DNA of 64,000 nucleotides. Source: Cinnamomum chago. Its lineage: Eukaryota; Streptophyta; Magnoliopsida; Laurales; Lauraceae. The stretch spans positions 41,199,501 through 41,263,500 of the forward strand of contig CP142458.1 in the NCBI GenBank assembly GCA_038049695.1. Direction: 5' to 3'. Positions within the stretch are counted from its first letter, which is position 1. Each line of letters begins with the position of its first letter. Made by a program: the position numbers and the translations under genes. Shown piece by piece: positions 7,141-33,130 of this stretch. The notes beneath the pieces were generated by a model that was given only the letters and a program-made list of their open reading frames with translations, did not search any database and had not been told where the DNA came from.

Positions 7141-7317
7141 AAAAAAAAAAAACCACTAAGGTTGCACCAATTGCATTCTTTGACCAAAGTGGATCTAAGA
7201 AAAGCCTTGTCCAGAGTGTGGAGACAGCTAGACTGTTCTAGGCAAGGATCACAAAAATCTGCAAAGCCAGCCTACCTGGCACCTCTCAAGGAGAACCGGT
7301 TCTACCCTCTTGCTTAC

Positions 7318-10300
7318 ATGAAAGAGGAGAAGCCTACCCTCCGCCAAACAAAACCAACTCAGCACGAGCCGGCCTGCTCATACAAGCCCAAAATCAAATC
7401 GTGCATCATAAAGCCTCCGCAAGAACCTGCCAAGGCCTGCACACCTGCGAGTCGACCTTTCCTCTCAACAGGAGCCGAACTCGCCAAATTCAAAGCTTCG
7501 CTGCAACAGGCAAAGGACCGCGTCCAGATTCTGTCCCTGCCCGTCTTCAAAGAAGACAAGCTCGGCTGCTGCGCACCAGGGACTACGTCCTTCATTGCCA
7601 GAGCACAGCCAGAGCTAACCGAATCTCAAATCGCTCGTCGTATGCGCCGCCGCACGGCATATCGACAAAAGAGACTAGAGAAGCAAAGAACCCAGGATTC
7701 TGCACTTCAGGTCTCCCAAAAATGGGTCGAAAAAGAAAGACCCGACCAAGTTGTTGCTGTTCATATGGTTGGCAAAACCAGAAAACGCCAGAAGTCAGCA
7801 ACAAAAATCCATGTCAGGCGTCCGGTGACTCGCAGCGTCTCCCGGACACAAAGACATAAAGAAAACTCTCCCGCTCCTTCAAGCCAAGGACATCGGAGTG
7901 ACCACTCTTCGAGCTCTTCATCTAAAAGGATGAGCTCCAGCTCAGTCACCAAGACTGTATCCTCTTTCGACTCTCGAAGAATGAACGTCTTGGTCACAAA
8001 TGCTGAGCAACCTCCGCCGCATGATGACGTAACCGCACGCATCCAGCAGCTGGAGCAAGGGCAGCAAAGGATAGAGACTCTAATAGAGAACCTAATTCTC
8101 AATCTTCAGCGTCTACAAAACAATGAAGCTCCTCCGAGCCATCAAGGCGACGAGGAAAATGCGGAAAACAGTGAGTCACGCGCCCTTACCAAAAAGGACG
8201 TTGACGATATCCTCGCCAAAGCAAAAGAAGAGGATACACTAAAGGAGCAGGGGATCAAGCCACCATATCCCTTGTGGATGGACTCGGTCCCGTTCCCTAC
8301 AAAATTCAAGCAACCTACTCTCCAAACATATACGGGGAAGGGTTCGGCCAGACAGCACGTGATCCATTTCAAGATCCTGACGGGAGCTATTGTGGACCAA
8401 GATGCCCTCAAAATCCGCCTCTTTGCAAGTACCCTAAAAGGTACGGCCTTTGATTGGTACTCCACTCTGCCGGAGGACTCCATTCAAAATTGGGCCATGC
8501 TGGAGACACGCTTCCTAACCCACTTCAAAGGTGAGGATCATCCTGTTACTATGGCTCAGCTCTGCAGCCTAAAACAGGGAGAGAATGAGTCAACATATGA
8601 CTTCATTCACAAGTGAAAGGCAATGGCATACAAATGCTCCGATGTACTGCCACAAGCGTCACTGGTCGACATCTGCCGAAACAACATGAGAGCAAGAATC
8701 CGCTCCATGATCATCGGCAACAAATCAAAGAACCTGGGAGAACTCCTGGAAGCAGCTATGGAAGCTGAAACGGTGATCAAAGACCTCAACAGTCAGAAGT
8801 CATCAAAGAAAGAGCCGACTGCCATTGCAACCTCAAAACCAAAGAAAAAAGAGGTTCTCAATGTGCAAACCAAGTCAGCTCCTCAGCAGCCAAGGAAAGT
8901 TGAAAACAAAGCTGCAGGTAAAAAGCATGAACTCTCTGATGCCTTCAAAGAACGAGTAGAGAAGAAATACTCGTTCGATGAAGATGTTGAAGAAATCTTT
9001 GGGGCACTTCTCGCAAACGGTAAACTCACCTTGCCTGACCCCAAAAGACCAGGAGATGTTGGCAAAACCAACGATCCTCGGTACAGTCCATACCATCAGA
9101 TGGTCTCGCATCCTCTCAGTCAATGCTTTGTTGTGAGAGAGAAGATAAATGAGATGTGGAAAAACGGAGTCATTACCTTCGACAAGAACTATGGGTCTGC
9201 CTCCGTCAACATGGTGTCGTGTGGACAAAAACAAAAATCACCAAAAGAGAAAATCACTACTTCCTTCAAGGTAATAAAGATGACCCAAACGTCTCAAGAG
9301 TTGATTCCATAACCAACATCAGACGGAAAGCCCATATGGGTACACCCCGATATCCTAGAAGATGAAAATTGGGAGGTCGTCAAAACAAAGCCAACCGCTC
9401 GACAGCGAAGGCAAACCAGGAGACAACTCCGCAAGCTCAAACAGCAGGAGAAAGCTCCGAAAAAGCAAGAAGTCGCTGAAAAGGCAGAAACCTCCTCTAC
9501 CGCTTCACTGGGGGCAACAGAAGAGTCCTCTCCTAAGGCTTCAAAGGCAACAAGAAAATTCACTCTTGGTGATTTCATGCCACCACACCTCAGAGATGAA
9601 ACTATGCAAGGGGCATCATACTCTTGCAACTCGGTGGTCGGATTCCCCATGGATGGATACGAGTCCAGTGACACCGCCAGTGACATCGATGAGTGGGAGG
9701 AATCCCTCGAAACAGGAGAATATCTCTCCGACGAGGAATGGATCCCTGAATCTCATCTTATGCCAGTAATCTGGTATAACTCATTACAGCCGCAAGGATC
9801 CTGGTCTGATGATGAAGAAGACCAAGAGGCTGTCCAAGAAAATACTCCAGTGGAACCCAACCATGTTGAACCACAAGGAGCAGACGAAGAAGAAGATTTG
9901 GCTCCCGTGCCTGATCTCGATGAATACGCAAGGATCTTGCAGCACCTTGCTATAGAGCAAGAACAAGGTCGCATCAATCAGCTTCGTCACAACCCAGCAC
10001 CGGAAGTTCCTGAAAATCTACAGGAATATCCTTCGGTAACCCCGAAAAATGAAGAAAGTTGTTGGATCGATGATCCTCTTACATCTGAGGACGAATCTGA
10101 TTCCCAATAGTTCATCTTGGAGGCATCTTCCGTCAAAGTTACTTGCAATGCAATAGCTCAGGATGATAATTCCTCACCTTCTCAGGCTTCGTCTCCTGGA
10201 ACAGTGACATCGGAACTCAAACCTTTTCCGACTGATCACCATGAAGAAATTCCAGCCGGTGAAATCTTCTTCAGAGAAAATCCGGTCAATTGGTTCCAAA

Positions 10301-10416
10301 TGCCCGATCTCATCGGTGATGTCTGGACCGACAAAATATTCGATAAAGAAGGAAAGTTTGCTGGATGCTGTTCAGGACTTGCTCCCGGAAAATGCTCCAT
10401 GCAACACAATTACTGA
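7318..10416 (+). pseudogene. gag: Element B gag (capsid) region, interrupted
   Basis: The frame opens at 7162 after poly-A; the first in-frame ATG is at 7318, which I take as the start. A basic N-terminal stretch is followed by a serine-rich part and a short coiled coil (ITARIQQLEQGQQRIETL; the displayed first base is uncertain). The retrotransposon gag core follows (LRIRLFASTLKGTAFDWY-like, FLTHFKGEDHP, LKQGENESTYDF). The frame meets TGA at 8614-8616, TAA at 9310-9312 and TAG at 10108-10110, yet the codons between read sensibly in the same frame (for example WVHPDILEDENWEVVK after 9313). These are therefore late nonsense changes in one long gag. No CCHC knuckle was seen, as is common in Tat gag. 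A one-base shift near 10345-10360 moves coding into the pol frame. Confidence 0.85.
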
Positions 10417-13400
10417 AGATGGCAATGCTGACACAGAGACATCTTCAGCAAATGAGAAGGAACAACCCCTCGATCTCGAGGGTGATCTTCTAAACAAAGA
10501 CCCTTCTCCAGAAGCTCTTGAAGTTGGTAGAGGTACCCGTTCTGGCCGGGATTACCACAAAAACTACAACCAACCTTCTGCTTCTTATGTAAATCCTTCA
10601 GGAAAACAAGCTGTAAACACCCCTAGTGGCAAGAATAATGAAAATGCAGGCCCCAAGGAGGCTTTCAAGTACGACTTGATTCAGCACTTCAAACACATAC
10701 CTGCACGTCTGCACATCCTAGACTTATTACGAATGTCACCACAGACTCGTGATAGTCTCATTTCAGAACTACAAATGCTGGATGCGGATGTCGACAAACA
10801 TGCCCCACAAGTCCTACAAATTGAAATGGACTATAGGGTCAAAAAATCAAAAAGTCCCTCAAAAGGAGAAAAGAAGAAAACTGAGGGATCCTGCATCGAA
10901 TGCCTCTCGGTTCAAAAAGCAGCAAGTGCAACCATCGCCTTCACTAAGGAAGACCTCCTGCTAGGCGAAACAAAGCACAACCGACCCCTGTACTTCACCG
11001 GGTACATCAAAGAGGTACCACTACGCAGAATCCAGATCGATCCAGGTTCTGCACTCAACCTCATCTCCACTTCGGCCCTCGAAGAACTAGGCATTCCGCC
11101 TAGCAAGCTGAGCCACACATCTGTGTCCATCTTTGGATATGATGGCAGCGCTCAAAGGCCGATCGGCAAAATCAGGTTCAAGTTGCAAATCGGTGATCTT
11201 ATCTTCGAGGTCACTGTCTATGCAATAAAGACCCCTTCATGCTACAACATCCTTCTCAGACGTCCCTGGATACACGAGAATGGTGTTGTCCCTTCGACTT
11301 TACATCAGTGCATCAAGTTCGTTGGCAATGACGACTTGATACATCGAGTGTTCGCAGACAAAAAGCCCTTCAAAAGTAAAGAAGTCTATTTCACAGATGC
11401 TCAGATGTACAATGATGAAAAAGAAGAAAAGGAGGAAGAAATAGCACCCTTTGCCAAAAATCTCCAGAAAGACAAAGGCAAGGCTCCTCAGCAATCACCG
11501 GAAGAAAACAAACCCTCTATCAAAACCGAAGAGAATAATCAATCTCCCTTCATGGTCTCCCTCAAGTCTTCAAAGCCTCTGGTGATCACCACCAAAGCAA
11601 AGAAGATAAAACAAAAGGCTGGGGGCAAGTTTGCTGTCTCCTTTGTGACTATCTTGCAAAACACGGATTCGGACTCAGAGCCAGAAGACGATACATCGTC
11701 AAGCCAAGCTGATGATCAACAAGTTCAGCCTGCTCTCACTCCGATGGAGACAACCGTTGACATAGAAGATCCGGCATCTGCTTCCTTCGTTGTTCCAGCA
11801 ACATCAGCAGAAGAAAAGCCAATCTTCTTCCATAAATCGGGAGTTTCTTCATCAAATTCTTGGCTTGAACCTTTCCAAAATGAAGGTATGCCTCAACTAT
11901 CCCTGTATAGTCCAATGGCGCAAGCTATCATGAAGAAAATGGGCTACGACGCTCAGAACCCAATCGGTTTGGGAGATGGTCGTGGTATTATCACGCCATT
12001 GGAACCAACCCTGACCAAAAGTCAACTGGAAGGTTGGAAACCCCACCGCCACATAGAAAAGTCTTCACATGGGCTAGGGTATGATCCTGATGCCTCCTTG
12101 AGACAGTTGACACAAAGGCCGCAAAGTGATCTTGTCGACCAAGCCTCAACATCTCATATTAATGAAGACATTGATCTCCCTGGATATCTCTTTGAAGAGT
12201 TGACCGTCAAGGATCCAGGAAGTCTATCCAATTGGTACGATTCCTCTGATGATGAAGAAGAATTGTCCGATAATACAGACACACGGTTCTTTAACCCAGA
12301 AGAACCACTGTCTCCAAAGGAAGTGCCCTACTTCGACCTAGTTTCAACAGGTGATTGGGACCACCTCATAGCAAATCTTGAGAAAAGTACCAATCAAGAA
12401 GACCCATGGACAAAAGCAGAGCCGTGGTCTGTAGATACCTTTGGAACTCCAGAAGGCTTTGTTGGGTTGGAAGCCTTCAAAAATATTGTGGAGGAACCAC
12501 CTTCAAACCTTCCAACTGAAGATTCTGTTCAAAAGATAGACTTGGGAACACCTGATAACCCACGTCCTGTATTCATAAGCAAGAATATAAAGGATGATGA
12601 GTTACCTGAGTATATCGCGTTTCTTCATGAGTTTGTTGATTGTTTTGCATGGTCTCACGCTGAGATGCCTGGCTTAGACCCCAAAATAGCAGTCCACAAA
12701 CTCAATCTTCAAAAAGATATCAAGCCTGTCAAACAAGGCCAAAGAAGGTTCCGTCCTGACGTGATGGACAAAATTGAACAAGAAGTTCAAAAACTCAAAA
12801 GCGTTGGCTTCATCCGTGAGGAACAGCATCCTGAATGGTTGGCCAACATCGTCCCCGTGACAAAGAAAAATGGGCAAATCAGGATCTGCATTGATTACAG
12901 AGACCTGAACAATGCATGCCCAAAAGATGAATTCCCGCTCCCTATACCGGAGGTGATGATCGACAACACCTGTGGGTTCGAGCTAATGACATTCATGGAT
13001 GGCTTCTCTGGCTACAATCAGATAAAGATGCATCCTGAAGATGAAAAACACACAGCATTTCAGACCCCGTTTGGCGTGTATTGCTACACTGTCATGCCAT
13101 TCGGTCTAAAGAATGCCGGCGCTACATATCAGAGGGCTATGATGAAGATATTCCAAGATATGCAGCACAAGACGGTCGAATGTTATGTCGACGACCTCGC
13201 CGTTAAAAGCAAAAGAAAAGAAGACCATCTCAAAGATCTTCGAGAAGTCTTCCTCCGACTTCGCAAACACAAACTGCGAATGAATCCCCTCAAATGCTTC
13301 TTCGGTGTTTCATCGGGTAAGTTTCTCGGATTCGTAGTACGGAAAGCTGGGATAGAGCTTGACCCCATCAAAGTCAAGGCTATCCTAGAAATGCCATCTC

Positions 13401-15862
13401 CAAGAACCCTAAGACAATTAAAAGGGCTCCAAGGAAGATTGGCATACATTCGACGGTTCATCTCCAATCTATCAGGGAAGTGCCGTCCATTCTCTCGGTT
13501 AATGAAGAAAGGTGTCAATTTTGTCTGGGATGCTGAATGTGAAGCCGCGTTTCAGGACATCAAGTCATACCTGACTAAACCTCCAGTGTTGGCTGCCCCC
13601 ACAACTGGAAAACCATTCCTCTTGTACACAAGAGCCCTTGACTGTTCTTTAGGCGCTCTACTCGCACAAAAGAATGACGAGGGAAAAGAAGCTGCTCTAT
13701 ATTACCTTAGTCGCATGTTGATAGGTGCAGAGCATCGCTACTCTCCAGTCGAAAAAGAATGCTTGGTAGTGATGTTCGCCGTACAAAAACTGCGTCACTG
13801 CCTCCTATCCAACACAGTGTACCTGATTTCGAGGATCAACCTCCTAAAGGTCCTTGTCACAAAAGCAGGTTCTCTCAATGCCCGACTGGCAAAATGGTCC
13901 ATCCTCCTGTCACAATTTGACATTAGGTATGTACCACAAAAAGCAATCAAAGGCCAAGCTCTAACAGACTTCCTCGCGGAGCATCCATTGCCTAAAGATT
14001 CTCCACTCAGGGATGACCTCCCAGACGAATCGGTCTACAGTGTGGAGACTTCCTTATCAAATGCTTCCTGGCACATGTACTTCGATGGCGCAACCAGGAC
14101 AAATAAAAAGGGAAATCAAATATCGGGAATTGGCATTCTCTTTGTTAGTCCCGACAAAAACATGACTCCACACGCATTCTCGTTACTGGAACCATGTTCA
14201 AACAATGCAGCTGAGTACCAAGCCCTCATCGTAGGATTGGAGCTCGCCCTTGAATCCGGCATCACTACGCTGGAAGCTTTTGGAGACTCTCAACTGATCG
14301 TCAACCAGATGAATCAGAAATTTGAAGTCAGGAAGCCCGATCTGTTGCCTTACTACAACAAGGCACAATCGCTTCGACAAAAGTTCGACATCTGTCACAT
14401 CACCCACATCCTCAGAGGTGAAAACATTCGTGCTTATGCCCTAGCTGGACTTGCTGCGTCTATGGCAATCCAAGAAGGGGAAAACATGCAAGTTACAGTG
14501 TGTCAAAAAAGGATTCTCCCTCCTCTCAACACACATCAAGCAGTTGCTGAATGCCACCAAGTGGTTGGAAGTCGGATCTCCGTCCTTAAACCTCTGATCA
14601 GCGACTGGAGGGATCCGTTCATTGATTACATCATGTTCGGAATCCTACCTGAAGATCCAAAAGAACGGGTAAGCATCCAAAGACGAGCCCCAAATTTTCA
14701 TTTGGATATTCCTTTAAAAATGCTGTATAGAAAATCCTACAATGGAGTACTTCTACGCTGCTTGTCACAACAAGAGGCTGAGGAAACACTCAAAGAAGTA
14801 CATGCTGGTCTTTGTAGAGCCCATCAGGCTGGGCCTAAGCTCTACGATCAGATAAAAAGGTTAGGTTATTATTGGCCTACCATGGTGGCTGATGCAATGC
14901 AATTTGCTAAGCGCTGCCAACAATGCCAAGTTCATGGAGATTATGTCCACATGCCTCAGGAATGGCTACATCCTACAGCAATCTCGTGGCCTTTTGAAGC
15001 CTGGGGTATGGACATCATAGGTCCTATCTCCCCTCCATCGAGCAAAAGTCATCGCTTCATCTTCGCCGCTACGGATTATTTCTCCAAGTGGTCAGAAGCA
15101 TTCGCGCTTAGTGAAATGAAGACCTCATCAGTCCTTCAGTTCTTGCGCACCAACATCATTTGTCGCTTTGGCATACCTAAAAGATTTGTCCATGATAACG
15201 GACCACAGTTCCGCGATCACCAATTCTACAGGTTCTGCGACAAATACAAAATCCAAAGTTGTCCTTCAACTCCGTACAATCCGGCAGCGAATGGACTAGC
15301 AGAGGCTTTCAACAAAATGCTCTGCAAAATCCTCAAGAAAATGGTCTCTAGTCACAAAAGAGATTGGGGCGACAAACTGCTTGAAGCTTTGTGGGCCTAT
15401 CGAACCACCGTTCGAGGACCAACCCATAGCACACTATTCTCCTTGGTCTATGGATGCGAAGTTGTTGTCCCTTTGGAAGTTCAAATTCCTTCCTTAAGGG
15501 TATCTCTGCAAAATGACATGACGCAAGAAAGTAATATCAAATTGAGACTCCAAGAGCTGGATAACCTCGATGAGAGACGGCTCGAAGCTCTACAAAGCAT
15601 TGAACTCTACCAAGCACGCATGGCAGGATCTTTTGACAAGAAGGTCAGGCAACGCGCCTACAAAAAGGGAGACTTGGTTCTTACAGTAAAAAGACCAATG
15701 GTTTTTGCCAACAAATCCAAAGGCAAATTTGAACCAAAATGGGAGGGACCTTTCGTCATTGACAAAGTCTTCTCCAACGGCGCATACGCTCTTCTAAACA
15801 TGGAGGGTGACAGATGTATGCTGCCCATCAATGGAAAGTTCTTGAAGCGGTACTACCCTTGA
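10241..15862 (+). CDS. pol: Element B pol: protease, G-patch, RT, two RNases H, integrase
   Basis: This is an uninterrupted frame of 1873 codons; genuine coding begins near 10350, where gag shifts into it. The aspartic protease has IDPGSALNLIS at residue about 266. A G-patch (MKKMGYDAQNPIGLGDGRG) lies near 560-580. The RT spans about 830-1050 with FMDGFSGYNQI and the catalytic YVDD near 981. The first RNase H (about 1125-1250) keeps LDCSLGALL and EKEC, but the usual later Asp is replaced by ISRINLLK. The archaeal-type RNase H (about 1280-1406) has FDGATR, NAAEYQAL and GDSQLIV, but Tyr stands where the last catalytic Asp is expected (ENIRAYALA). The integrase has a zinc-binding region from about 1520 and intact D, D, E (GMDIIGP, HDNGPQF, GLAEAF). 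It ends KFLKRYYP, with no chromodomain. Confidence 0.93.
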   Translation: MKKFQPVKSSSEKIRSIGSKCPISSVMSGPTKYSIKKESLLDAVQDLLPENAPCNTITEDGNADTETSSANEKEQPLDLEGDLLNKDPSPEALEVGRGTRSGRDYHKNYNQPSASYVNPSGKQAVNTPSGKNNENAGPKEAFKYDLIQHFKHIPARLHILDLLRMSPQTRDSLISELQMLDADVDKHAPQVLQIEMDYRVKKSKSPSKGEKKKTEGSCIECLSVQKAASATIAFTKEDLLLGETKHNRPLYFTGYIKEVPLRRIQIDPGSALNLISTSALEELGIPPSKLSHTSVSIFGYDGSAQRPIGKIRFKLQIGDLIFEVTVYAIKTPSCYNILLRRPWIHENGVVPSTLHQCIKFVGNDDLIHRVFADKKPFKSKEVYFTDAQMYNDEKEEKEEEIAPFAKNLQKDKGKAPQQSPEENKPSIKTEENNQSPFMVSLKSSKPLVITTKAKKIKQKAGGKFAVSFVTILQNTDSDSEPEDDTSSSQADDQQVQPALTPMETTVDIEDPASASFVVPATSAEEKPIFFHKSGVSSSNSWLEPFQNEGMPQLSLYSPMAQAIMKKMGYDAQNPIGLGDGRGIITPLEPTLTKSQLEGWKPHRHIEKSSHGLGYDPDASLRQLTQRPQSDLVDQASTSHINEDIDLPGYLFEELTVKDPGSLSNWYDSSDDEEELSDNTDTRFFNPEEPLSPKEVPYFDLVSTGDWDHLIANLEKSTNQEDPWTKAEPWSVDTFGTPEGFVGLEAFKNIVEEPPSNLPTEDSVQKIDLGTPDNPRPVFISKNIKDDELPEYIAFLHEFVDCFAWSHAEMPGLDPKIAVHKLNLQKDIKPVKQGQRRFRPDVMDKIEQEVQKLKSVGFIREEQHPEWLANIVPVTKKNGQIRICIDYRDLNNACPKDEFPLPIPEVMIDNTCGFELMTFMDGFSGYNQIKMHPEDEKHTAFQTPFGVYCYTVMPFGLKNAGATYQRAMMKIFQDMQHKTVECYVDDLAVKSKRKEDHLKDLREVFLRLRKHKLRMNPLKCFFGVSSGKFLGFVVRKAGIELDPIKVKAILEMPSPRTLRQLKGLQGRLAYIRRFISNLSGKCRPFSRLMKKGVNFVWDAECEAAFQDIKSYLTKPPVLAAPTTGKPFLLYTRALDCSLGALLAQKNDEGKEAALYYLSRMLIGAEHRYSPVEKECLVVMFAVQKLRHCLLSNTVYLISRINLLKVLVTKAGSLNARLAKWSILLSQFDIRYVPQKAIKGQALTDFLAEHPLPKDSPLRDDLPDESVYSVETSLSNASWHMYFDGATRTNKKGNQISGIGILFVSPDKNMTPHAFSLLEPCSNNAAEYQALIVGLELALESGITTLEAFGDSQLIVNQMNQKFEVRKPDLLPYYNKAQSLRQKFDICHITHILRGENIRAYALAGLAASMAIQEGENMQVTVCQKRILPPLNTHQAVAECHQVVGSRISVLKPLISDWRDPFIDYIMFGILPEDPKERVSIQRRAPNFHLDIPLKMLYRKSYNGVLLRCLSQQEAEETLKEVHAGLCRAHQAGPKLYDQIKRLGYYWPTMVADAMQFAKRCQQCQVHGDYVHMPQEWLHPTAISWPFEAWGMDIIGPISPPSSKSHRFIFAATDYFSKWSEAFALSEMKTSSVLQFLRTNIICRFGIPKRFVHDNGPQFRDHQFYRFCDKYKIQSCPSTPYNPAANGLAEAFNKMLCKILKKMVSSHKRDWGDKLLEALWAYRTTVRGPTHSTLFSLVYGCEVVVPLEVQIPSLRVSLQNDMTQESNIKLRLQELDNLDERRLEALQSIELYQARMAGSFDKKVRQRAYKKGDLVLTVKRPMVFANKSKGKFEPKWEGPFVIDKVFSNGAYALLNMEGDRCMLPINGKFLKRYYP

Positions 15863-16239: not shown

Positions 16240-16650
16240 ACCGCAGGGAAGCGACGTTCAGTCGATACTTGCAAAACCCAAAACCGGAAGGATGCAAACC
16301 CCATTCGATACTTCCAAAACCCCAAAATTTCAAAAAATCGTGGAGACGCAACGTTCCAGTTGATATCCACAACCCAAATTTCAAAACAAACAAAAAACAA
16401 AACAAAGGTTCGAAAAAACCTCAAAATTCAAAAATCGTGGGGAAGCGACATTCCATCGATACCCACAAAACAAAATTTTTGAAGAAAAAAAAAGCAGGGA
16501 AGCGACGCTTAGTCGATACTTGCACCCAAATCCGCGGGGAGGCGACATTCCATCGATACTCGCAACCGAATGAGCAAGGAAGCGACATTCCATCGATACT
16601 TGCAAAACCATTCAGCAGGGAGGCGACTTTTAGTCGATACTTGCATTTTT
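16240..16650 (+). repeat. Degenerate tandem repeat around gaagcgacattccatcgata
   Basis: About eight diverged units alternate a core like gggaagcgacgttcagtcga with short A-rich spacers of variable length. It is a non-coding repeat field between pol and the antisense gene. Confidence 0.8.
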
Positions 16651-16654
16651 GAAA

Positions 16655-17240
16655 ACCAAAAACCTGGCTTTCACGCCAAAAAACCCGGCTTCCATGCCAA
16701 AAATCCGGCTTTCACGCCAAAAAATCAAAAATACGGCTTTCATGCCAAAAATCCAAATTCGGCTTCCATGCCAACAAAACAAAACTCGGTTTTCAAAAAA
16801 AAAAATCTGGCTTTCATGCCAAAAACAAAAAATCTTTGGCTTCCATGCCATCTCAAACTCGGCTTTCATGCCATTTTTTTTTTAAAAAAAAAATCGGCTT
16901 TTACGCCACAAAAAAACGGCTTTCATGCCACTCCAAAAAATCGGCTTTCATGCCACCTCAAAATTCGGCTTTCATGCCATCTCAAAAAAAAATTGGCTCT
17001 CATGCCATCCCAAAATTTGGCTTTCACGCCACCAAAATCGGCTTTCATGCCACCTCAAAAAATCGGCTTTCATGCCACCTCAAAATTTCGGCTTCCACGC
17101 CATCCAAAATTTTGGCTCTCATGCCATAAACCCAAATTTCGGCTCTCATGCCATTTCAAAACTCGGCTTTTCAAGCCATAAAAAAAAAAACCCCTGGCTT
17201 TTGCCGCAAAATCTGGCTTTCATGCCAAAACAACCCTTTC
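16655..17240 (+). repeat. Minisatellite of GGCTTTCATGCC units
   Basis: About two dozen copies of ggcttt/cca/ctgcc-type units (consensus GGCTTTCATGCC) are separated by A-rich linkers. Single-base variants such as ggctctcatgcc and ggcttccacgcc show decay. Translations full of repeated AFMP-like words are artefacts. The field lies downstream of pol and just beyond the poly(A) signal of the antisense gene. Confidence 0.9.
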
Positions 17241-17420: not shown

Positions 17421-17426
17421 TTTATT
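17421..17426 (-). terminator. Poly(A) signal of the antisense gene
   Basis: On the minus strand AATAAA occurs about ten bases after the last stop codon (17438-17436), in an ATAATAAACTC context. The position fits a plant near-upstream element for cleavage. Confidence 0.65.
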
Positions 17427-17435
17427 ATAGAGAGC

Positions 17436-20400
17436 TCAGTCTAGCATGGTCTTCAACCAAAGATCCAGTTCCTCAAGCAGACTCTTGGCCTTAACCTCCA
17501 AAGCTTCAAGACCGCGCTTCTTCAAGATCTTGCCATAAAACGCGGCAGAACGCCGCAACCCATCTTCAGCACGAGGAAGCTCTTCCTAGAGAATTTGCCA
17601 CTGCTCATACTCCTGAGTCTTTCTCTGAAGGCTGCTACCGGCTTCTTCAACTTGGCGAATCAGAGTTCCCTCTTTAGCACGGGCTTCTACAATGGCAGTC
17701 CATTTGGTAGCATTTTGTTCTTGCAATTGCTCAAGGCGCTGCCTAGCTTCTGTGACCTCCCTATCAAGACGGCGCAGGTCCTGTGTTAGCTCGATGATAG
17801 CCAACTCGGTAACGTTCCTCTCCCGAACGAATTGCTTCCGAGCCCGTGAGATCTTATCCATTTCAGATTTGATCTTACCGGATGGCTGCAAAAACATCTC
17901 ATTGAAAAAGTCACTGCTTGGGAAATTCTTGGTCTCAGTCCATTTGTCGCCTAAAGCAATGACTTCATCAACAAAGGCCTTGGCACTTGCAATGTCCAGA
18001 CCGACCTCTGCACTGTCAGCAAGGATGTCCTGTACATGCTTGACCATGCCAAAACCAGCTTCCAAATGGCCAGAAGAGAGAGTTTCAACCCATGAGCTCA
18101 GCACACTCTTCAACACCTTCTTTGCATATTAAAGGGATGGTCCGGATGGAGATTCACCACGCTCTGTTGGTTGACTGCCCACGTCAGGCCGTGGTGGAGA
18201 AGAAATCAAAAGGCTCTTTCCAAGCGGAGCCACTGAAGAAGCAATATCACCACAAAGTCCCGCCTCTGCCGTGACGAGACTGGTAGAAGAAGCCCCTACT
18301 TCTGGATCGGCTGCTGGCATCTCCTGCTCTGTCCCTGAGGAAGGCGAAGGAACTTCTCCTGTTGCTTCACAACCTGCTGGCAAAAACACAAGAAAAGGTA
18401 TGAATATGATCTTGTGAAAAAAAAAATCAATGTCAAGATTATCACTATGGAATACCTTCTTCCATGATGGGTGGAGTACTTTCTGTCTCCATTTGCTCAT
18501 CTGAGGCATCGTCAAAAGCTATATCCATAGATGGCTCGAAGTCGGAATCCTCTGGCAAGTCAGCTGTCAAGAAAACAAAAATATGTGTCAGCAAATTCAA
18601 AAAAAAAAAAAAAATCATCATCCTCATACCAGGTGGAGATTCTGGGTCCTCCCCAGAGTCCCTCAATTCTTCTTCAGATGCCGCAACTGGATCCATCACC
18701 GCCTCATCGACAGGAACCTCGGGCATCACCAAGTTTTCATCTTTTGCAAAAGAAAGAAAACAGCAGATCAAAAAAAAATTCCCTCATAAAAGGAAAGAAG
18801 CGGAAATAGAAAAGAAGGAGAATCATACCAACATCGGCGGTCTCTTCTTCACGACTCCTCTTCTTTGGAGGCTCACCAGCATCTCCTGATACCTCCTCAA
18901 CAATAGTAGGAGGGACTTCCAGATCAGGAGAGTCTTCGTGACGTCTCTCAATGCGACGCTGTCCTCTCCTCCTCTTTTTTCTACGAGCCGGTCTACTTGA
19001 AGTACCTGCCTCACTGTCAAAGTCAGGACTTCCACTTGGCTCCTCACTGGATGGCCCGCTCCTACCAGTAGACCCCATGGAAGCCTTCATTTTCTCTGCT
19101 TGCATCCAAGTGTCGATCTCGGTTTCCTCCTCCGCGAGCAGTCTCAAGACCTCAACAGGTATCTCTTGTGCGGCCCCGGATCTGATGACATCCTGTTCCT
19201 CGAGAAAGCCTATCCTATGCTTCTCTCCAGAAAGGAAGAACAAAACTTCCTCTCGACGGACGCCATCTGATCTACCAAGACCCTTCCCAGGAGATTGCTT
19301 GACATTCAGCTCCTTCTCGGAAAGCCCTCGGTACACAGCAAAGCTCTCCACGAACCACTTCGTGAAGCCAGCAGTCCGGAAAGTGGGCAACTCAGGATAG
19401 GAAATCATGGCAGTAGTGTCCTCCGCACTATAGAAAGCCCATGCATTTCTCCCGTCCTGCAAACCTCCAAAACGCTTCACCATGCTCGAAGGCGCTCCAA
19501 CAACGCCTTGAGAGAAGCCTAACTGCAACGCAAAACGCGAAGGGACATACGGCTGGATGTCAACAAAAATATGTCTGCGGTACACCATCGTGCCAACACG
19601 TATGTTTAAAAGCCACCTCTTCTCTGCGTTGGTCAAAGAATAGTGTCTTCCCGATCCTGCCCTGGTGGAATCACGGGAGACACCAAAATCAAAAGCCTTC
19701 TTCCGCAAATCTGGAGAAAGCTTTACTGAAGATTGCCCAATCTCGACATCCCTGAATCGTCGGATTCTCAAGCGGGTGGACAGAAGTGAATCGGAAACGG
19801 CTTTTCCCCTAGCCAACCGAATCATAAAAGGGTCATCATCCTGTGCAACGCCTAAACGGTGAAAGCCAGGACAGTGGTACACATACCACGAATAGAAAAT
19901 ATGGGCTGAAAATACTCTGTTCATGGGGAGCCCAAGCCGGACCAAGAAAGCAGCAGCCTGAAGTTTGGTACATAAATAGGAGTAAAGAGCCGGCACCAAA
20001 GCTAGCTGCTCTCCAAACGCCATCTGACAAGCCGGAAAAATACAATGCGGCCTGATGTGCGTCCCATCTCCTCCAGCAAAAACAGCCTCACCTAGCCAGT
20101 AAGTGAGGTACATAGCGAGATCTCTTCGCAGCGCAATGTCGGAACAAATGGCTCTTGTGCTTGCAAAGAATTCCTTCAGATTTTCTCGCATAACGGAGAT
20201 CTTCTTCGAAGCCAGATTCTTATCAGAAGATTCTCCACTGCCAAAGAAGTTGGGACATAAAGAGCCAAAATTCTTCCAACTGCTGCACCGGACTTTCAAG
20301 CCCTCCTTCTCCTTCAAAAAATCATAGAAGGCGACAAGCTGAAAGTACAAAAGCCTGAACTCCTCGGACTGTTCCTCAAGGACGCTGTCGATCGGCATAA

Positions 20401-22215
20401 ATTCCTCATAGAGTTTGCCGAGGATGGGCAACCCGGTAATGGCACTCAGCTCCTTCAAAGAAAAACCAATCTCACCATTCGTAACAATGAAGGTGTTGGT
20501 TTGTGGAAGGAAGGACTCCAGCATGGCCATAAAAGCCTCATCGGAGAAAACTACGGTTTGCCTAAAAGAGCGAACCGCATCAAAAATCTCGGCCTCCTTC
20601 AGAATGGCACCGTCGATCTGCAGGATGTGATCAGTCCACGACTCCCAGCCTGAGTCTGCACTGAAGCGGCCACGAAGCCAAAATGGCTTTACCCAATTGC
20701 TGCCATCACCCGTGAAAATGCCAAGGCCCACCGGTCTCAAATCAACCGATGGATGATCAGATCCTTGGTAGCCGCTGGCCGGAATCAACATGTCTAGACG
20801 GACAAGCGACTTCTCTGCATAACCAGAAGGACCGCCAACAAAAACCCCGGTCTTGACCACATTGGTCCTCTTCACCCAGCTTGGAGGATCTTCTCTCTTA
20901 GAGCATGTGGGAGAAAGACTCATGATCGAAATAGTACGATCAAAAGGCGATCGGGTAGAAATGGTTCTCTCCTCACCATCAGCTGTGTAAGAGAATTGAA
21001 AACATCTCCTTTGGTATGACGAGTCATCAGGGGCTGCATCACCAAAGAAAAAAGTAGGCTTGGGCACAACGCTCTGATCGTCCATGACCCAAGGACGATT
21101 GCTTGCCATAATCTTGTAGAACTCCTCATCCTTGAAAGCGATCAGTCGCTGTCTCATCTCATCTCGGTTGAGCGAGTCACACTCTTCCAAGTTTCTCTCC
21201 ACATACTGGACCTTCTCCCAGGCCTGCTGTACGGCCGCATTGGAAGATTTGGCAGATCGACGAGATGCATTGGTAACTGGTTCCTTACCCTTGTTCGGTC
21301 TGGAGGAACTGCCTGCAAAGATTGAAAGAAAGAAATCAATCAACAGAATGACTGAATTTTGCTAAAAAAAAAATCCTAGCGAAATTTTGGCATGACTCCG
21401 GGGCAATTCCGAAGAAAAGGGAATCACCCCGAAAAGAAAGGAAGCCTGAAGATGAGCTCAACATCGCCGCGAGCTCATGATCAATGAAGGATTCTCAAAG
21501 AAGACGTGAAGTCAAACATTGCTGTGAGATCAAGACAGTCTTCTCAAATTTCCGCAAGAACCGGAAAAGAGCTCAACATTGCTGCGAGCTTCAAATCCCA
21601 AAACTTGCAAAAAGCTCCTTGAAACCCCCGCAAGACTAAAGAAAGAGCTCAACATTGCTGCGAGCTTCAAATCTCGAGACTTGCAAAAGATTTCCAGGTG
21701 TGCATCATCATCATGCTCCCAATTCAATTTACCAAAAATCATGCATAAAAGAAAATCATCATGCACTAGATGCTAGGAAAACCTTGACAAAATTTGACCA
21801 ATTCCAACCCAATTTGGTCAAAATCAAACTTTGTCTAAGTCAAAATTCATGTTGGCTTAGCATAGAAATTCTAGCCTTCTATCTTGATGCATAAAAAAAA
21901 AAAAACGGGAATGCATGAGCATCTTGGATTGCATAAATCTCATTATCATGGAGAGCAAAAAGAGGGGAAAAGAAAGTTTTCTTTCCTAAAAAGAAAGAGA
22001 AAAAAAAAGAAAAAAAAAAGAGAAAAGAAAATTTCTGGCCTGGCCCACAAGCCGAGGCCCACAGGCCGTGGCACATGGGCCACGTGGTCGTACGGACATG
22101 TCCGTACAGCAGTAAAAAAAAAAGAGAGAAGAAAAAAAAAAGAAAAGGGCGTGTAAAAAAAAAAGGACAACAACACGTGCAAAAAAAAAAGAAAAAAAAA
22201 CTTACTTGAAGCCAT
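17436..22215 (-). CDS. Spliced antisense gene in element B: PMD-like, NLS-rich, coiled-coil protein
   Basis: Minus-strand exons are 22215-22206, 21312-18829, 18740-18630, 18563-18456 and 18376-17436. Every intron is GT-AG, all joints are phase 1, and the spliced frame is 1218 codons. Exon 1 gives ATGGCTTCAA before GTAAGT. Residues about 263-630 resemble the plant mobile domain: NGEIGFSLKELSAITGLP, a helix-rich RRDLAMYLTYWLGEAVF block and YVPSRFALQLGFSQ. Basic clusters RPARRKKRRRGQRR (from 778) and PPKKRS (818) look like nuclear signals. Exons 3-4 are acidic; the last exon has a heptad-type coiled coil (about 1050-1165). TAA at 18131-18129 (codon 987) and TAG at 17588-17586 (codon 1168) break this copy. 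PMD proteins such as MAIN and MAIL1 act in plant gene silencing. A role here in regulation or anti-silencing is inference. Antisense extra ORFs are known in Tat-type elements. Confidence 0.85.
18377..18455 (-). other. Intron 4 of the antisense gene, with a NAGNAG acceptor
   Basis: The donor reads AGAAG|GTATTC and the acceptor TTTTTGCCAG|CAG. The second AG three bases on (CCAGCAG) is also usable in frame and would drop one residue. Confidence 0.75.
18564..18629 (-). other. Intron 3 of the antisense gene
   Basis: The intron is 66 bases and T-rich, with donor CCTG|GTATGAGG and acceptor TTCTTGACAG|CTG. The two flanking acidic exons join in frame. Confidence 0.8.
18741..18828 (-). other. Intron 2 of the antisense gene
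   Basis: The intron is 88 bases and very T-rich, with donor GTTG|GTATGATT and acceptor TTTGCAAAAG|ATG. Splicing restores an acidic reading frame in exon 3. Confidence 0.75.
21313..22205 (-). other. Intron 1 of the antisense gene (893 bases)
   Basis: The donor is TCAA|GTAAGTTT. The acceptor follows a pyrimidine tract, TTTCAATCTTTGCAG|GC. The intron contains short repeats of agctcaacattgctgcgagc (about 21560-21670, a diverged copy near 21455), long A-runs, a CACGTG G-box near 22081 and an 18-base perfect palindrome at 22090-22107. No sense-strand gene is seen in it. Confidence 0.8.
22090..22107. other. Perfect 18-base palindrome
   Basis: GTACGGACATGTCCGTAC equals its own reverse complement. 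It sits nine bases from a CACGTG G-box inside intron 1 of the antisense gene, about 110-125 bases downstream of the antisense ATG. Confidence 0.85.
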
Positions 22216-22335
22216 GGATGGAGAAGAAAGAAGAACTTGAAGACTCTTGAAGAAGGAGGATTCTTGATCTTAGAGCAACTCTTGAAGACTTTTGCAAAAA
22301 GAAAGCAATAGGAGCAAGAGATCCCACCTCCCTTG

Positions 22336-22343
22336 CTTTTATA
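22336..22343 (-). promoter_or_regulatory. TATA box of the antisense gene
   Basis: On the minus strand TATAAAAG lies about 120 bases before the ATG. No ATG occurs between the expected start site (about 22305-22312) and the ATG at 22215, so the first AUG of the predicted mRNA is the one that splices into the long frame. The start context is tccATGG. Confidence 0.7.
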
Positions 22344-22399
22344 GAAGAAAGCAAACCAAAAGAGGAAAGAGAAGAAAACTAAGGAGGTAAGTGCTAAAA

Positions 22400-22620
22400 A
22401 TTAGCAACCTTCCCAAAAGAAAAGGAAACTTGGGATATTCTCTCTCAAAACAAAGATTCCTTGAGAAATTCTCTCCAAAAAGAAAGGGAATGATAGATAT
22501 TCTCTCCCAAAGAAATATTCCTTGAGAATCTCTCCCAAAATCAAGGAAACTTGAAAAAAATCTCTCAAAGTAAAGATATTTTTAGATATTCTCCACCCAA
22601 AAGAGATATCTTTAGATATT
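22400..22620 (-). repeat. Short direct repeats upstream of the antisense TATA box
   Basis: Variants of gatattctctcccaaagaaa and attccttgagaatctctc recur four or five times. They occupy the position of a promoter-proximal region for the minus-strand gene; any regulatory role is inference. Confidence 0.55.
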
Positions 22621-22959
22621 CTTTATGAAAATGACACCATATGAGATCTAAGCCATCTTCAAAGCTTAAGGTCCCATGGGTTTGCCCATATGAACCAGGT
22701 TTGACCACCTAGGCACTAAAAGTGGCTTTTAGTCCAAATTCCTCTTACCAAGAGCATACAAAAAAAAAAAATGGTCCCATGCCTCTTTTGAGTTGATTGG
22801 ACCATACAAAAATCCAAGCTTCATGAGTTTCCAAAATTCCAAACCATCCCACCTCATGAACCAAATTAAGCCAAAATCTTGAAATTGACATTCCACAAAA
22901 GCCCAAACCACTCCAATGGACCCAAAATTGTCCCAAAGAGTGAACCAAAAAACCAAACC
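22621..22959. other. Non-coding spacer
   Basis: I see AT-rich sequence without a gene or clear repeat. Confidence 0.45.
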
Positions 22960-23150
22960 ATGGTCCCCTAACTCGCCACATACAGCTTGTTAGGTCACAA
23001 GACCAAAACCAAAAATCAAAACCCGACCCCCTAACTTGCCACATACAGCCTGTTAGGTCACAAGGTCAAAACCAAAACCAAAAACCTGACCCCCTAACCT
23101 GCCACATACAGCTTGTTAGGTCACAAGATCAAAATCAAAACCAAAAAACC
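22960..23150 (+). repeat. Three-unit repeat of about 62 bp before the 3' LTR
   Basis: Three copies start cccctaac(t/c)(t/c)gccacatac and contain agc(t/c)tgttaggtcacaag, each followed by an A- and C-rich tail such as accaaaaccaaaa. Confidence 0.85.
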
Positions 23151-23380: not shown

Positions 23381-25981
23381 TGTTGACACCAAAAATGTCA
23401 CTTTGCCTCCTCACACCAAAAGCTACACGGAGCCGCATCCTACCAAAAATAGGCAGGCGCTACTTCAAGCATCAGATCTTGTCAGAATCAAACAAAAACT
23501 GCAAGGTCATTCAAAACAACCAAAAGAGAGGTACACATGAAGTTTCGGGCCATTCCGACATCATTTGACCTAACTTCACTTCTCCAACAACTGAGCAGTA
23601 GCTCCCGGCGGCGACAGTGTCGAAGACTTCAAATCTTCGATCAGAGCCTATGGATGGTTACAAAATACCTCCAAAAGGCTCCATGTCAAGTTTCAGGTCA
23701 ATCGGACATCGTTTGACCGGAAGTCAAAGCTCGGGATTTCCCTCGCGGTGAAATCAAGGCAAGCGTTTGCATGACCCCAAACGGCTTCAAAACTCAAACG
23801 AAAGCCTATGGTTGGTCTTATCTACTGATGAGGGAGTCACACGTCGAATTTCAGGTCAATCGGACATCGTTTGACCAAAAGTCAAAGCTCGGCATTTCCC
23901 TCGCGGTGAAATAAAGGCAAGCGTTTGCATGACTCCAAATGGCTTCAAAACTCAAACAAAAGCCTATGGTTGGTCCTATCTACTGATGAGGAAGCTACCC
24001 ATCAAATTTCAGGTCAATCGGACATCGTTTGACCGAAAGTCAAAGCTCGGCATTTCCCTCGCAGTGAAATCAAGTCAAGCATTTGCGGACCCCCAAAAGG
24101 CTTCAAAACCTGAACAAAAGCCTATGGTTGGTCTCGTCTACTGCTCAAGAAGCTACACGTCGAATTTCAGGTCATTCCGACATCGTTTGACCTAGTTTCG
24201 ACGCTTGACAAAAAAATCGGCAGTTCTCCACAGCAAAGTCTTCGGCTTTTCAGAAAATGGGAAACTTTGTGATCCGATTTGCACGGCTTCTCGTCAGGTT
24301 TTCTTGAGGGAAATCCAGCCAATAAATGAGAGGAAATTCCAAGAAAAATGCAGGAGAAAACAGAAGCAAAAACGGACGAAAAACGGCGAAGAAAAAGTGA
24401 CCGAAAGGCGGCCAAAAAAATGGGCCAAAGCCCATGGTCGCCAGCGACCATGGAGGTCCGGGCCGCCGGACCTCGCCCAAAAACCCCGTTTTTCGGGTAT
24501 TTTTCGCGTTTCGAGTTGATTGGCCCCTGTGATTTTTCCAAAATCTGATTTTTTGTGCATGATATCCGTCGATCTTCATCAACATCATGGATCCATCACT
24601 GGAATCATTAGATCATCATCGGACGCCTCAAGATCGTCAAACGGCTAACCAAGAAAGCACCCTTTCTGCCCGCCCGATCGTGAAATCGATTGGACAGATG
24701 TTGCTGGCCCGCTGACATCAACCAATGTTTGACATTGGATCACCATCCGACATCAAATGGTATGTGGGTCCATTGATGATCATCGCAAGAAGAATCCCAA
24801 AGGACGCGGCACGGCCCGCGACTCTTCAAGCGCCCAGGCAATCAATTAATGAAGTTAAATGACCCGTTTATGGCAAGTTAATGCGGTCATTAACTCATTA
24901 TTTTAAACGGCCCAATCAGAAGCAAGCAAATGGGAGTTACAAGTCCAAGTAATCATGACATTAAAATTATGAAACTCCCGTCATCATGGAGATTAAAGGC
25001 GATTAAATGCCCACTACTCTCCATCGGCCAATCAAATTCAAGGAAAAAGGAGTTACAAAACAAGTAATTAAAAACTTGTAACTCCTCCCATCATGAGCAT
25101 TAATACCATAAATGCTCATAAACTCTCCTAAATGGCTACCAAATGTCTATAAATAGGAGGCCATTCCAAGGGAAACAGATCCAGAAAAATCGCCAGAAAA
25201 TCATTCAAAGATCCAGAGAAAGGTCGCCAGAAAATCATTCAAAAATCCTCGGAGAAATCTCTACAACTCTGCTCCTTCAAGAAAACTCTGCTACAACAAG
25301 CACTACAAGGTGATCAAAGCCCCTTGGGGGGCCACCCCCCCCAAAGGCCACCTCTCCTTCTATCCAACATGGCTAGATGCGGCTTTTCAGCCCGTCTACT
25401 CGGCTTTTTACCGGATATAGGACCTTACCTTGGTCCTTATCCTCTAAAAATCTGAGGTTGGAGCCAAGCCAAGAAATCAAGCATTAAAGTTCTCATCTGA
25501 AGGACGATGGCGGAGTCCATACATAACTCGCGACCGTCGATCTGAACGGGTCCCCCACAATCGCATGAGAAGTTAGATTCCTTTTCTTTCTTTTCTGTTG
25601 CATTGTATTTTTTTATAAAGAGACAAAAAAATCACATCTCTTGTCTTTCATTATTGATAAGATTTGTAAATCGCCTTTCACGGCAAAATCGCCTTTCACG
25701 GCAAACAAAGAAAACCGCTTCTCACGGCATTCAAAAAACAAACCTTGTCTCTTTTCTTTAAAAATATGTGTGCAATGGAAAGATGGAAAAAAGTTGATTT
25801 CCTTTTCTACTTGTGAAGGTGAATCTCCGGATCACCACTCTAAATTCCAAGTAGAATAGAAAATCTGGCATACCCGTACAAAAAAAAACTGATGCCCGCT
25901 TTTCCTTTCTTTCCCTCCACCGTACCCCGTCAGCCCCGGGGCGGAGGCAGCTTTGGAAAAAGAGAAAAGCCGGGACCATCA
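23381..25981 (+). repeat. Element B 3' LTR (LTR3)
   Basis: The LTR is 2601 bp from TGTTGACACC to GGGACCATCA. It is very similar to LTR2 by eye, with scattered substitutions, and is followed by target copy atgct (25982-25986). It has the 158-base U3 array, the TATA box at 25148-25155 and a single terminal segment. Confidence 0.92.
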
Positions 25982-25992
25982 ATGCTATGTAC

Positions 25993-29702: not shown

Positions 29703-29714
29703 TCCTCCACCCCT
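29703..29714 (-). other. Polypurine tract of element C
   Basis: On the minus strand aaggggtggagga precedes TGTAAGACC. Element D has the same at 53096-53108. Confidence 0.75.
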
Positions 29715-32700
29715 TAGGGCATTTGGATCTCCAAATGAAATATAAAACTCACATCAGGTAGTAGATGTGGATACTTCGTCTGAACTTGATCTTGTATTTC
29801 CCATGTGGCCTCTTCCGGTCCATGATTCTCCCATAGTACTTTTACCCACTGAATAGTCCGTGTCCTCAACTCTTGTTCCTTCGTATCGATGATCTGAATG
29901 GGCTTCTCAACATAGGTAGCATCCTCCCTGATCTCCAATAGCTCGTGCCGGAGTACATGTGAAGGATCGGGGACATACTTCTTCAACATAGACACATGGA
30001 AGACGTTGTGTATAATGGATAGCTTGGGTGGTAAGGCTAACCTATAAGCCACATCACCAATCTTGCTCACAATGTCATATGGTCCAATGTATCTCCGTGA
30101 TAACTTGCCCTTTTGTCCAAATCTCAATGTTCCTCTAGTAGGTGACACCTTCAGGAAAACTTTGTCCCCTTCTTTGAACTGTAAATCCCTTCTATGGGAA
30201 TCTACATAGTTTTTCTGTCTACTCCAGGCTACTTTCAGTCGTTCTTGGATCAACTTCACTTTGTCGCTGGTTTCACTCACTATAGTCGGTCCATGGAAAC
30301 TGCGAATTCCGACCTCTTCCCAACAAACCGGTGTCCTACACCTCCTGCCATACAAAGCCTCAAAAGGAGCCATCCCAATGCTCGAATGGTAACTGTTGTT
30401 GTAAGCAAACTCACACAACGGTAGAGTCTCATCCCATTGAGTCTTGAAGTCTAACACACAAACACGGAGCATATCCTCAAGAGTTTGAATCGTTCTCTCT
30501 GATTGACCATCTGTCTGTGGGTGATAAGCCATGCTAAACTGTAGTTTCGTGCCCATAGACTCATGTAGCATCTTCCAAAACCTTGAGACGAATTTGATGT
30601 CCCTGTCAGAAGTGATAGAAACGGGTTGTCCATGTCGATTGACGATCTCGTTGACAAACAACTCTGCTAAAGGTAGCATGTGCATCTTCTTCCCTGTCAT
30701 CATATGAATGAAATGAGCTGACTTGGTGAGACGGTCCACAATGACCCATATCGCATCGTTGCCTCTGCTAGTCCTCGGTAGTCCCGAAATAAAGTCCATA
30801 GTAATGTGCTCCCATTTCCATTCCGGGATCTCTAACGGTTGAAATAATCCCGGAGGCCTATGATGTTCTGCCTTTATCAATTGGCAAGTCATACAACGAG
30901 AGACAAATGTTGCAATCTCTCTTTTCATGTTGTTCCACCAAAATCTGCCCTTCAAATTCTGATACATCTTCGTGCTGCCTGGATGCATAGAGTACTTCGT
31001 ACTGTGAGCTTCGGTCATGATATTATTCCTCAAATCTTCAATATTTGGTACACATAGACGGTCATTGTAGTACAAAACTCCATCAATAATACAGAAATCA
31101 GGACATTCTGCTATATGCTCCGAAATCTTGGCCAACTCTGGATCTTGCAACTGACTATCCTTGATCTTCTGAATAAAAGAAGGTTCTGACATTGACATGT
31201 TAGCTAACAAAACACCCTTCCTTAGTGGCTGCAGGTCTATACTCAACTCTTCAAATTGCTCAAAGATACAAGTACCACTTAGATTTGCCAAGCCTACTGA
31301 TTTTCTGCTTAAGGCATCGGCAACAACATTAGCTTTCCCCGGGTGATACTTGATTGGAAAATCATAGTCCTTGATATATTCCATCCATTTTCTCTGCCTC
31401 ATGTTCAATTCTTTCTGTGAAAACAAGTACTGTAAGCTGCGGTGGTCGGAGTGGACTTCGAACTTCTCTCCATAGAGGTAATGTCTCCACATTTTCAACG
31501 CGAAAACAACCGCTGCTAACTCAAGATCATGGGTGGCATAGTTCTTCTCGTGATCTTTCAACTGTCGGGATCCATATGCAATCACTTTTCCTTCTTGCAT
31601 CAACACACAACCAAGTCCAACATTCGAAGCATTGGTAAAAATGGTAAAACCGCTGCTTCCGGATGGTAAGGTAAGGACTGGTGCTATAGTCAATCTCTTC
31701 TTTAGCTCTTGAAAACTATCTTCACACTGTTCTGTCCACACATATGGCACATTCTTCCTTGTCAACTTCGTCAAAGGTGACGTAATCGACGAGAATCCCT
31801 GCACAAACCTCCTGTAATAACTAGCTAAACCCAGAAAACTCCTGATTTCTGACGCATTCTTCGGTCTTTCCCAACTCATAACTGCTTCAATCTTGGACGG
31901 ATCCACTGATAATCCTTCTTTGGAGATGATGTGCCCCAAAAATGCTACTTGCTCCAACCAAAATTCACACTTGTTGAGCTTTGCATACAACTGGTTCTCT
32001 CTCAAGAGTTGCAGTGCTATCCTCAAATGCTCTTCATGCTCTTCTCTGGTCTTGGAGTACACCAAAATGTCATCTATGAATACTACAACAAACTGATTTA
32101 GATACTTTGCAAATATCTTGTTCATCAACGCCATGAACACCGCCGGTGCATTAGTCAACCCAAATGGCATCACTAAGAACTCATAGTGGCCATATCTTGT
32201 CAGGAAAGCTGTTTTCAACACATCTGATTCTCTGACTCTTAGCTGATGGTAACCGGATCTCAAACCAATCTTCGAAAAGTATGATGCACCTTGCAATTGA
32301 TTAAACAATTCATCTATCCTTGGCAATAGGTATTTGTTCTTGATGGTCACTTGATTCAATCTTCGGTAATCTATACACATTCTCATTGAACCATCCATCT
32401 TCTTGACAAACAAGACTGGAGCTCCCCAAGGTGAAATACTCGGTCTCACAAAACCCTTGTCTAACAACTCTTGCAATTGTATCTTCAACTCTCACAATTC
32501 TGCTGGAGCCATTCTATATGGTGCAATAGATATCGGAGCGGTCCCTGGTAACAACTCGATAGTGAAATCAATCTCTCTGATGGGTGGTAAACCTGGGATC
32601 TCCTCCGGAAAAACATCCGGGAATTCCCAAACAATTGGGATCTCCTCCACCTCTTGGGACCATTTATCCTCCGTGATAAACGCCAAATATGCCTCACAAC

Positions 32701-33130
32701 CACTTCTCAAAAGTCTATCAGCCTTCAATGCTGAGACAAACCCTGTACGAGGATTTCTCCTCTCTCCCTGAAACAACACCCCTGCTGGTGTCTCATCTAA
32801 CTTGAAAGTCATGGTCTTATGGAAACAATCCATTGTGGCATGGTATCCTACCAGCCAATCCATCCCTAGGATGACATCAAAATCAAACATCTCTAATAGA
32901 ATGAGATCTGCGGTTAAAACCACTTCTCCTATCTGAACTGTGCAACTAGGGTAATATGTTCTACAAATAACTTGTTTGCCTACTGGGGGTTGCCACAGTC
33001 AAAATGAACTCAAGTTCTCTAGCATGCATATCAATCAACTTAGAAAATTCATGGGATAAAAATGAATGTGTAGAGCCAGGGTCAAATAAAATCCTAACTT
33101 TTATCCCACAAACAAGAAGTGTACCTTCCA
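29714..33130 (-). pseudogene. pol: Element C pol (protease to chromodomain)
   Basis: Reading leftwards, the protease (LFDPGSTHSF) lies near 33080. A one-base gain near 32985 and a TGA at 32494-32492 interrupt the frame; from there 924 codons are open to 29714. The RT has [10 protein letters not shown] and [12 protein letters not shown], but motif A reads [10 protein letters not shown], with Gly where catalytic Asp is expected. The RNase H begins IFTNAS, with Asn for the usual Asp, and keeps SDHRSLQY. The integrase keeps a zinc-finger HPGST...CMTC region and D, D, E (TMDFISG, TSDRD, GQSERT). The C-terminus ([18 protein letters not shown]) resembles a chromovirus chromodomain, which in the family targets heterochromatin. 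Confidence 0.9.

Follow-up and report, generated by a model that had tools for sequence, protein, structure and literature searches.

Ty3/gypsy retrotransposons encoding a plant mobile domain (PMD) have been described as the clades PMD-A1 and PMD-A2 (Ikeda et al. 2017, PMC5418596), and Neumann et al. 2019 (PMC6317226) report the domain for 57% of Ogre elements, while a further survey finds it in Gypsy elements as well (PMC9289625). Extra open reading frames in antisense orientation are likewise known from plant elements (Vicient and Casacuberta 2020, PMC7264820; Vicient 2025, PMC11963269). Among these, gene23 of the maize element Grande is antisense, has its own promoter and encodes a nuclear protein, according to a review which also recommends that antisense and spliced transcripts be sought (PMC7264820). 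In the host, MAIN and MAIL1 cooperate with PP7L to silence transposons (PMC5418596, PMC7156037), and it has been proposed, as speculation, that transposon PMDs counter this silencing (PMC5418596, PMC8616336). Whether the host PMD genes originated from Gypsy elements or the reverse is treated as an open question (PMC5418596).

The window analysed here, a stretch of 64,000 nucleotides from Cinnamomum chago (contig CP142458.1), contains what is likely to be an accessory five-exon PMD gene of a giant angiosperm Tat-clade LTR retrotransposon, placed antisense between pol and the 3′ LTR and apparently having a promoter and a poly(A) site of its own (Table 1); this confidence attaches to the identity and architecture of the gene, not to its role. 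The gene (22215-17436, minus strand) sits between the end of pol at 15862 and the start of the 3′ LTR at 23381, and the antisense position inside the element proposed in an earlier sequence-only reading is thereby borne out.

Table 1. Coordinates of the retrotransposon and of its antisense gene in the window
Feature	Position	Strand	Remark
Whole insertion with 5-bp target-site duplication	1446-25986	+	ATGCT at 1446-1450 and 25982-25986
Truncated extra LTR, just upstream of the 5′ LTR	1451 to about 3145		inside the same target-site duplication
5′ LTR (inner)	3151-5935	+	
Primer site	5939		
gag frame	7114-10110	+	Retrotrans_gag, E 2.3e-10
pol	10208-15862	+	1884 open codons: RT, RNase H, second RNase H, integrase
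AATAAA, putative poly(A) signal	17421-17426	-	
Exon 5	17436-18376	-	two premature stops; the family's final TGA at 17438-17436
Intron 4	18377-18455	-	79 bases as first drawn; 82 (to 18374) if the second CAG is used
Exon 4	18456-18563	-	108 bases
Intron 3	18564-18629	-	66 bases, phase 1
Exon 3	18630-18740	-	111 bases
Intron 2	18741-18828	-	88 bases, phase 1
Exon 2	18829-21312	-	2484 bases (828 codons): plant mobile domain and basic stretches
Intron 1	21313-22205	-	893 bases, phase 1
Exon 1, coding part	22206-22215	-	10 bases; start peptide same in 2 of 10 N-terminal relatives
TATAAAAG, putative promoter of the antisense gene	22336-22343	-	
3′ LTR	23381-25981	+	

The assignment of the element follows from the order of domains in pol, where Pfam places RNase H at residues 1107-1237, RVT_3 at 1293-1414 and integrase from 1521. 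The best NCBIfam matches of the second RNase H are archaeal RNase HI (E 1.7e-18, under the cut-offs of those models), and a second, archaeal-type RNase H between RNase H and integrase is the mark of angiosperm Tat elements, Ogre or Retand (Neumann et al. 2019, PMC6317226). The Tat type named in the sequence-only reading is upheld by this arrangement, and by its domain order the element is a Ty3/gypsy retrotransposon of the angiosperm part of the Tat clade. A protease-like stretch heads the pol domain order at E 0.001, below the Pfam cut-off, and the gag frame is interrupted by two in-frame stops (8614, 9310). A G-patch-like stretch was also noted at 11909-12022 (pol residues 568-605; E 0.07, below the Pfam cut-off); this domain is known in LTR retrotransposons (PMC9289625).

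Retand elements carry an antisense TRP28 (PF04195) gene in 97% of clusters and have LTRs of 315-1194 bp (PMC11963269), whereas the LTRs here measure 2.6-2.8 kb in an element of 22.8 kb, and neither exon 2 (E up to 1) nor 17592-18128 of exon 5 (E up to 0.5) gave a match to PF04195. The PMD and the long LTRs point rather to Ogre than to Retand. Nevertheless, the element is filed under neither, because the frame layout expected of Ogre is ambiguous, with gag ending at 10110, pol starting at 10208 and the protease-like stretch (below cut-off, as above) lying within the pol frame, and because no TRP28 domain was found in the parts scanned. The criteria named for Ogre are the position in an RT tree and a tRNA-Arg-type primer site.

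A single insertion is marked by the LTR pair, by a purine-rich tract 5′ of the 3′ LTR (identified by eye) and by the 5-bp duplication ATGCT. Its 5′ end bears two tandem LTRs, the outer of which is truncated and lacks the 158-bp repeats. Over the first 1841 aligned bases the 5′ and 3′ LTRs differ at 39 sites (2.1%; K2P 0.0216), but identity is only 86.9% over another 763 aligned columns, in which there are 56 gap positions; the fall from 97.9% identity implies that the LTRs are of mixed history or origin. With a substitution rate of 1.3e-8 per site per year, the first 1841 bases place the insertion at perhaps 0.83 My, an age that is rough because of the lower identity of the second stretch. Tandem repeats accompany the element: about six copies of a 166-bp unit between the primer site and gag (6123-7143), minisatellites of mostly 20-27-base units carrying the motif GGCTTTCATGCC in the interval that separates pol from the antisense gene's 3′ end (16316-17187), and three copies of a 63-bp unit between the antisense promoter and the 3′ LTR (22943-23147). 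Elsewhere in the window, two gypsy-like stretches of one kind and one copia-like stretch were recognised by eye from their frames (29714-34298, minus; 49622-52632, plus; 62486-63946, minus).

The signals that the sequence-only reading had assigned to the antisense gene are in place. The TATAAAAG TATA-like site lies on the minus strand at 22343-22336, no ATG occurs in the 120 bases from there to the start codon, the ATG at 22215 has the context ccatccATGG, and nine bases separate the final stop from AATAAA. However, TATAAAAG alone is weak evidence for a promoter, since it is found 9 times in the window against 3.1 expected. Further upstream, AAAATATCT occurs at 22574 as one of two in the window, and AATATCT occurs four times in 22344-22744, one of the four being AAAATATCT, and 19 times in the whole window, the stretch being repetitive with a 59-bp repeat. 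AAAATATCT may be a circadian evening element, a resemblance from which no conclusion is drawn. As for the four phase-1 GT-AG introns, which read CT...AC on the plus strand, the positions and lengths as first drawn (893, 88, 66 and 79 bases) hold, except perhaps at the end of intron 4. Its acceptor reads CAGCAG, and the relatives' proteins join VVEE to GCE, which fits the second CAG and suggests that the intron has 82 bases rather than 79.

The identity of the encoded protein is given by exon 2, where the proposed check against PF10536 returned a match of 56.1 bits against a curated cut-off of 34.9 (E 4.4e-15). Three protein searches yielded at least 49 distinct relatives, 45 of them labelled Persea americana; the others among the matches listed are P0001 and P0011 (ENA contigs), P0002 (labelled Yersinia pestis) and P0049 (Colocasia). 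The predominance of avocado proteins makes a host in or near the Lauraceae probable, and the collections searched may not include that host. P0001 is 92% identical and P0049 is distant at 26%, and 48 of the 49 relatives listed share at least 56% identity over the aligned part. An exon of 828 codons with such a Pfam match and 49 listed relatives is beyond chance. P0002, a 79% identical PMD protein deposited under Yersinia pestis on a 4.3-kb contig, is probably plant contamination. P0011, a PMD protein on a 2.1-kb ENA contig, represents 102 member sequences, against 1-3 for all other relatives. No relatives were found in plasmids or viral contigs; none of the six pattern matches obtained from GTDB genomes could be confirmed, and tblastn at E 1e-3 revealed no second copy of the gene in the window.

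All 49 relatives listed were scanned for the exon junctions, which in these proteins are predictions of gene models, not reads. Exons 3 and 4 join at the same residue in all 15 models that show both sides (a stricter pattern leaves 13), and so do exons 4 and 5 in 8 of 8 (5 with the stricter pattern). The pattern of the exon 2/3 junction occurs in 14 of the 49 listed, including P0020, which falls several residues short. These common junctions are present in both locus-tag sets, AAC387 and MRB53. BRAKER with RNA-seq was used for two published avocado genomes (PMC11220182, PMC9531333), although neither tag set could be traced to a publication. The models also differ among themselves: four skip exon 4 and pass from exon 3 straight to exon 5, P0008, P0013, P0017, P0020 and P0021 leave exon 4 for other points in exon 5, P0007 and P0021 arrive at exon 3 from other points, and both exon 3 and exon 4 are missing from P0022. 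The conservation of exon structure that was to be checked in relatives is supported for the positions of introns 2-4, which are common to many protein models, and exon 1 as drawn is used by two of the ten N-terminal models but not by the other eight.

These differences raise the question as to whether the intron structure, exon 1 and intron 1 in particular, is to some extent an artefact produced when consensus sites were drawn, so that the true start lies elsewhere or the gene is a single long exon. Such an artefact would accord with the nine occurrences of TATAAAAG and with those eight N-terminal models, three of which read through the acceptor while five start with a peptide that, by eye, is intron-1-like. 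Yet the two remaining models, P0039 and P0012, have the start expected from exon 1 and intron 1, MASSSSSR or MTSSSSSR. Furthermore, introns 2-4 recur in many models, and in the unspliced P0002 the similarity continues through the intron 2 donor and stops after it. An artefact of this kind is thus unlikely, and the five-exon structure is retained. The annotated avocado relatives show largely the same arrangement of exons, which, provided that their genes belong to similar elements, suggests that retrotransposons of this kind preserve an intron-containing gene.

Besides the PMD, the protein has basic stretches (residues 780-786 and 820-822), a linker of acidic character and a C-terminal region in which charged residues abound. 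The basic stretches suggest a nuclear protein. The C-terminal region looks coiled-coil; within 17592-18128 no Pfam family exceeded its cut-off, with DUF724, CENP-H and DUF6027 below threshold. An AlphaFold2 model of exon 2, built from an alignment that included 40 of the 49 relatives, reached a mean pLDDT of 42.1, too low for a usable fold, and the one match to a solved structure (E 0.18) was taken as chance.

Identity to the window protein was pooled, region by region, over those proteins among the matches listed that cover at least 60% of the region, leaving out P0049; since the relatives share ancestry, the rows of this comparison are not independent. It amounts to 82.5% for residues 4-130, 82.0% for 131-393, 87.0% for the PMD (398-650), 72.2% for 651-760, 58.1% for the linker (761-985), 75.0% for 990-1165 and 83.3% for 1170-1217. 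The difference between PMD and linker is as expected under selection at the protein level, as the regions should be alike in its absence. The share of conservative replacements, compared with a neutral simulation, is mildly above expectation in the PMD (0.347 vs 0.264, sd 0.064) and in residues 990-1165 (0.441 vs 0.334, sd 0.073). The linker shows no such excess (0.229 vs 0.245), and as a sign of selection this test is weak.

The gene of the window copy is decaying. The sequence-only reading had taken it to be complete, with a spliced frame of 1218 codons, and while the length is correct (3654 bases), the frame is not open, being broken at codon 987 (18131-18129) and codon 1168 (17588-17586). 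The copy thus encodes at most 986 residues, which cover the PMD, basic stretches and acidic linker but leave out the C-terminal region. A pattern scan of the relatives listed shows the frame continuing past the first stop position in 16 of 49 and past the second in 8 of 49, with 5 ending at the same C-terminus, counts to be read in the light of the many other models too short to tell and of the preference of gene predictors for open frames. From the LTR age, 1.04 new stops would be expected in the antisense gene (at least two in 27% of runs; two observed), 1.79 in pol (none in 17% of runs; none observed) and 1.15 in gag (at least two in 32% of runs; two observed). The two stops therefore fit ordinary decay, after insertion, of a once-open gene. 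The idea that they prove a frame that never coded was dropped, as relatives are open at these positions and the LTR age predicts about one stop.

More generally, the gene might be a dead relic without function, captured, carried along and decaying in most copies. The two stops in the antisense gene and the two in gag would agree with this, as would the avocado models that are often short or missing pieces. Nonetheless, pol remains open over its 1884 codons, the stops fit decay after insertion, and identity is uneven between PMD (87%) and linker (58%). A functionless relic is hence quite unlikely.

How such a gene could persist and be expressed is suggested by its orientation. The antisense introns appear in genomic RNA as CT...AC, and by the known rules of splicing they would be left unspliced there and would persist through reverse transcription, whereas introns in sense orientation would be lost. 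The antisense placement would thus allow the introns to outlast retrotransposition. Host RNA polymerase II would transcribe the gene from the internal TATA promoter independently of the LTR, and the antisense mRNA would be spliced and translated by the host, so that the protein could be produced while the LTR is silent. It is conceivable, and we advance it only tentatively, that the protein works in trans within the nucleus and there affects chromatin or transcription; the most plausible route would be mimicry of, or competition with, the transposon-silencing PMD proteins of the host (MAIN/MAIL with PP7L).

Conversely, the antisense RNA and not the protein may be what matters, transcription across the region from pol to the 3′ LTR giving rise to double-stranded RNA or to interference with the sense RNA and so tuning the activity of the element. 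A role of this kind has been discussed for antisense extra ORFs (PMC7264820), and the window copy is unable to make the full protein. However, an RNA role alone predicts neither the uneven protein identity along the domains nor the open frames in relatives, and RNA and protein roles can coexist. That the RNA matters in place of the protein is accordingly very unlikely.

Several parts of this picture are already known, namely PMDs in Gypsy and Ogre elements, antisense extra ORFs and the self-promoted gene23. The newness that the sequence-only reading had seen in the whole architecture is narrowed accordingly: a self-promoted antisense nuclear gene is already published (PMC7264820), and what appears to be new is the multi-intron structure, as no antisense, intron-containing PMD gene of a retrotransposon was found in the literature searched. 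Intron structures may be contained in Steinbauerova et al. 2011, Gomez-Orte et al. 2013 and Kejnovsky et al. 2006, and spliced models may exist in the supplement of Ikeda et al. 2017, who ran Fgenesh around transposon PMDs (PMC5418596). The extra ORFs of Neumann et al. 2019 (PMC6317226) were predicted as unspliced frames of at least 250 codons, whereas the gene described here has four introns, and surveys built on unspliced frames may have missed or shortened such genes. Antisense placement would be a simple way for a retroelement to retain a spliced gene. As PMD proteins belong to a poorly understood silencing pathway, the exon structure also offers a character for comparing element-borne with host PMD genes, in which common intron positions would favour common descent at the DNA level. 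A wider generalisation, which we regard as doubtful, would hold that Gypsy-encoded PMD genes as a class are multi-exon antisense genes with introns kept unspliced in genomic RNA and shortened by unspliced-frame surveys, and that their protein is the element counterpart of MAIN/MAIL, interfering with that host pathway, itself derived from or copied into such elements.

Among the closest described systems are the PMD-encoding Ty3/gypsy elements, which are likewise Tat-clade elements with an extra PMD gene. The host proteins MAIN and MAIL1 carry a PMD by Pfam, as does the window gene, but they are products of clade PMD-C host genes that are not borne by retrotransposons. With antisense accessory genes of the Grande gene23 kind, the gene has its position, its antisense orientation and the nearby tandem repeats in common; a promoter of its own and a nuclear protein are reported for gene23, whereas their counterparts here are a TATA-like site and basic stretches. 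Finally, while the antisense accessory genes compared here encode TRP28, SMC-like or unnamed proteins, the gene in the window combines a PMD with several introns.
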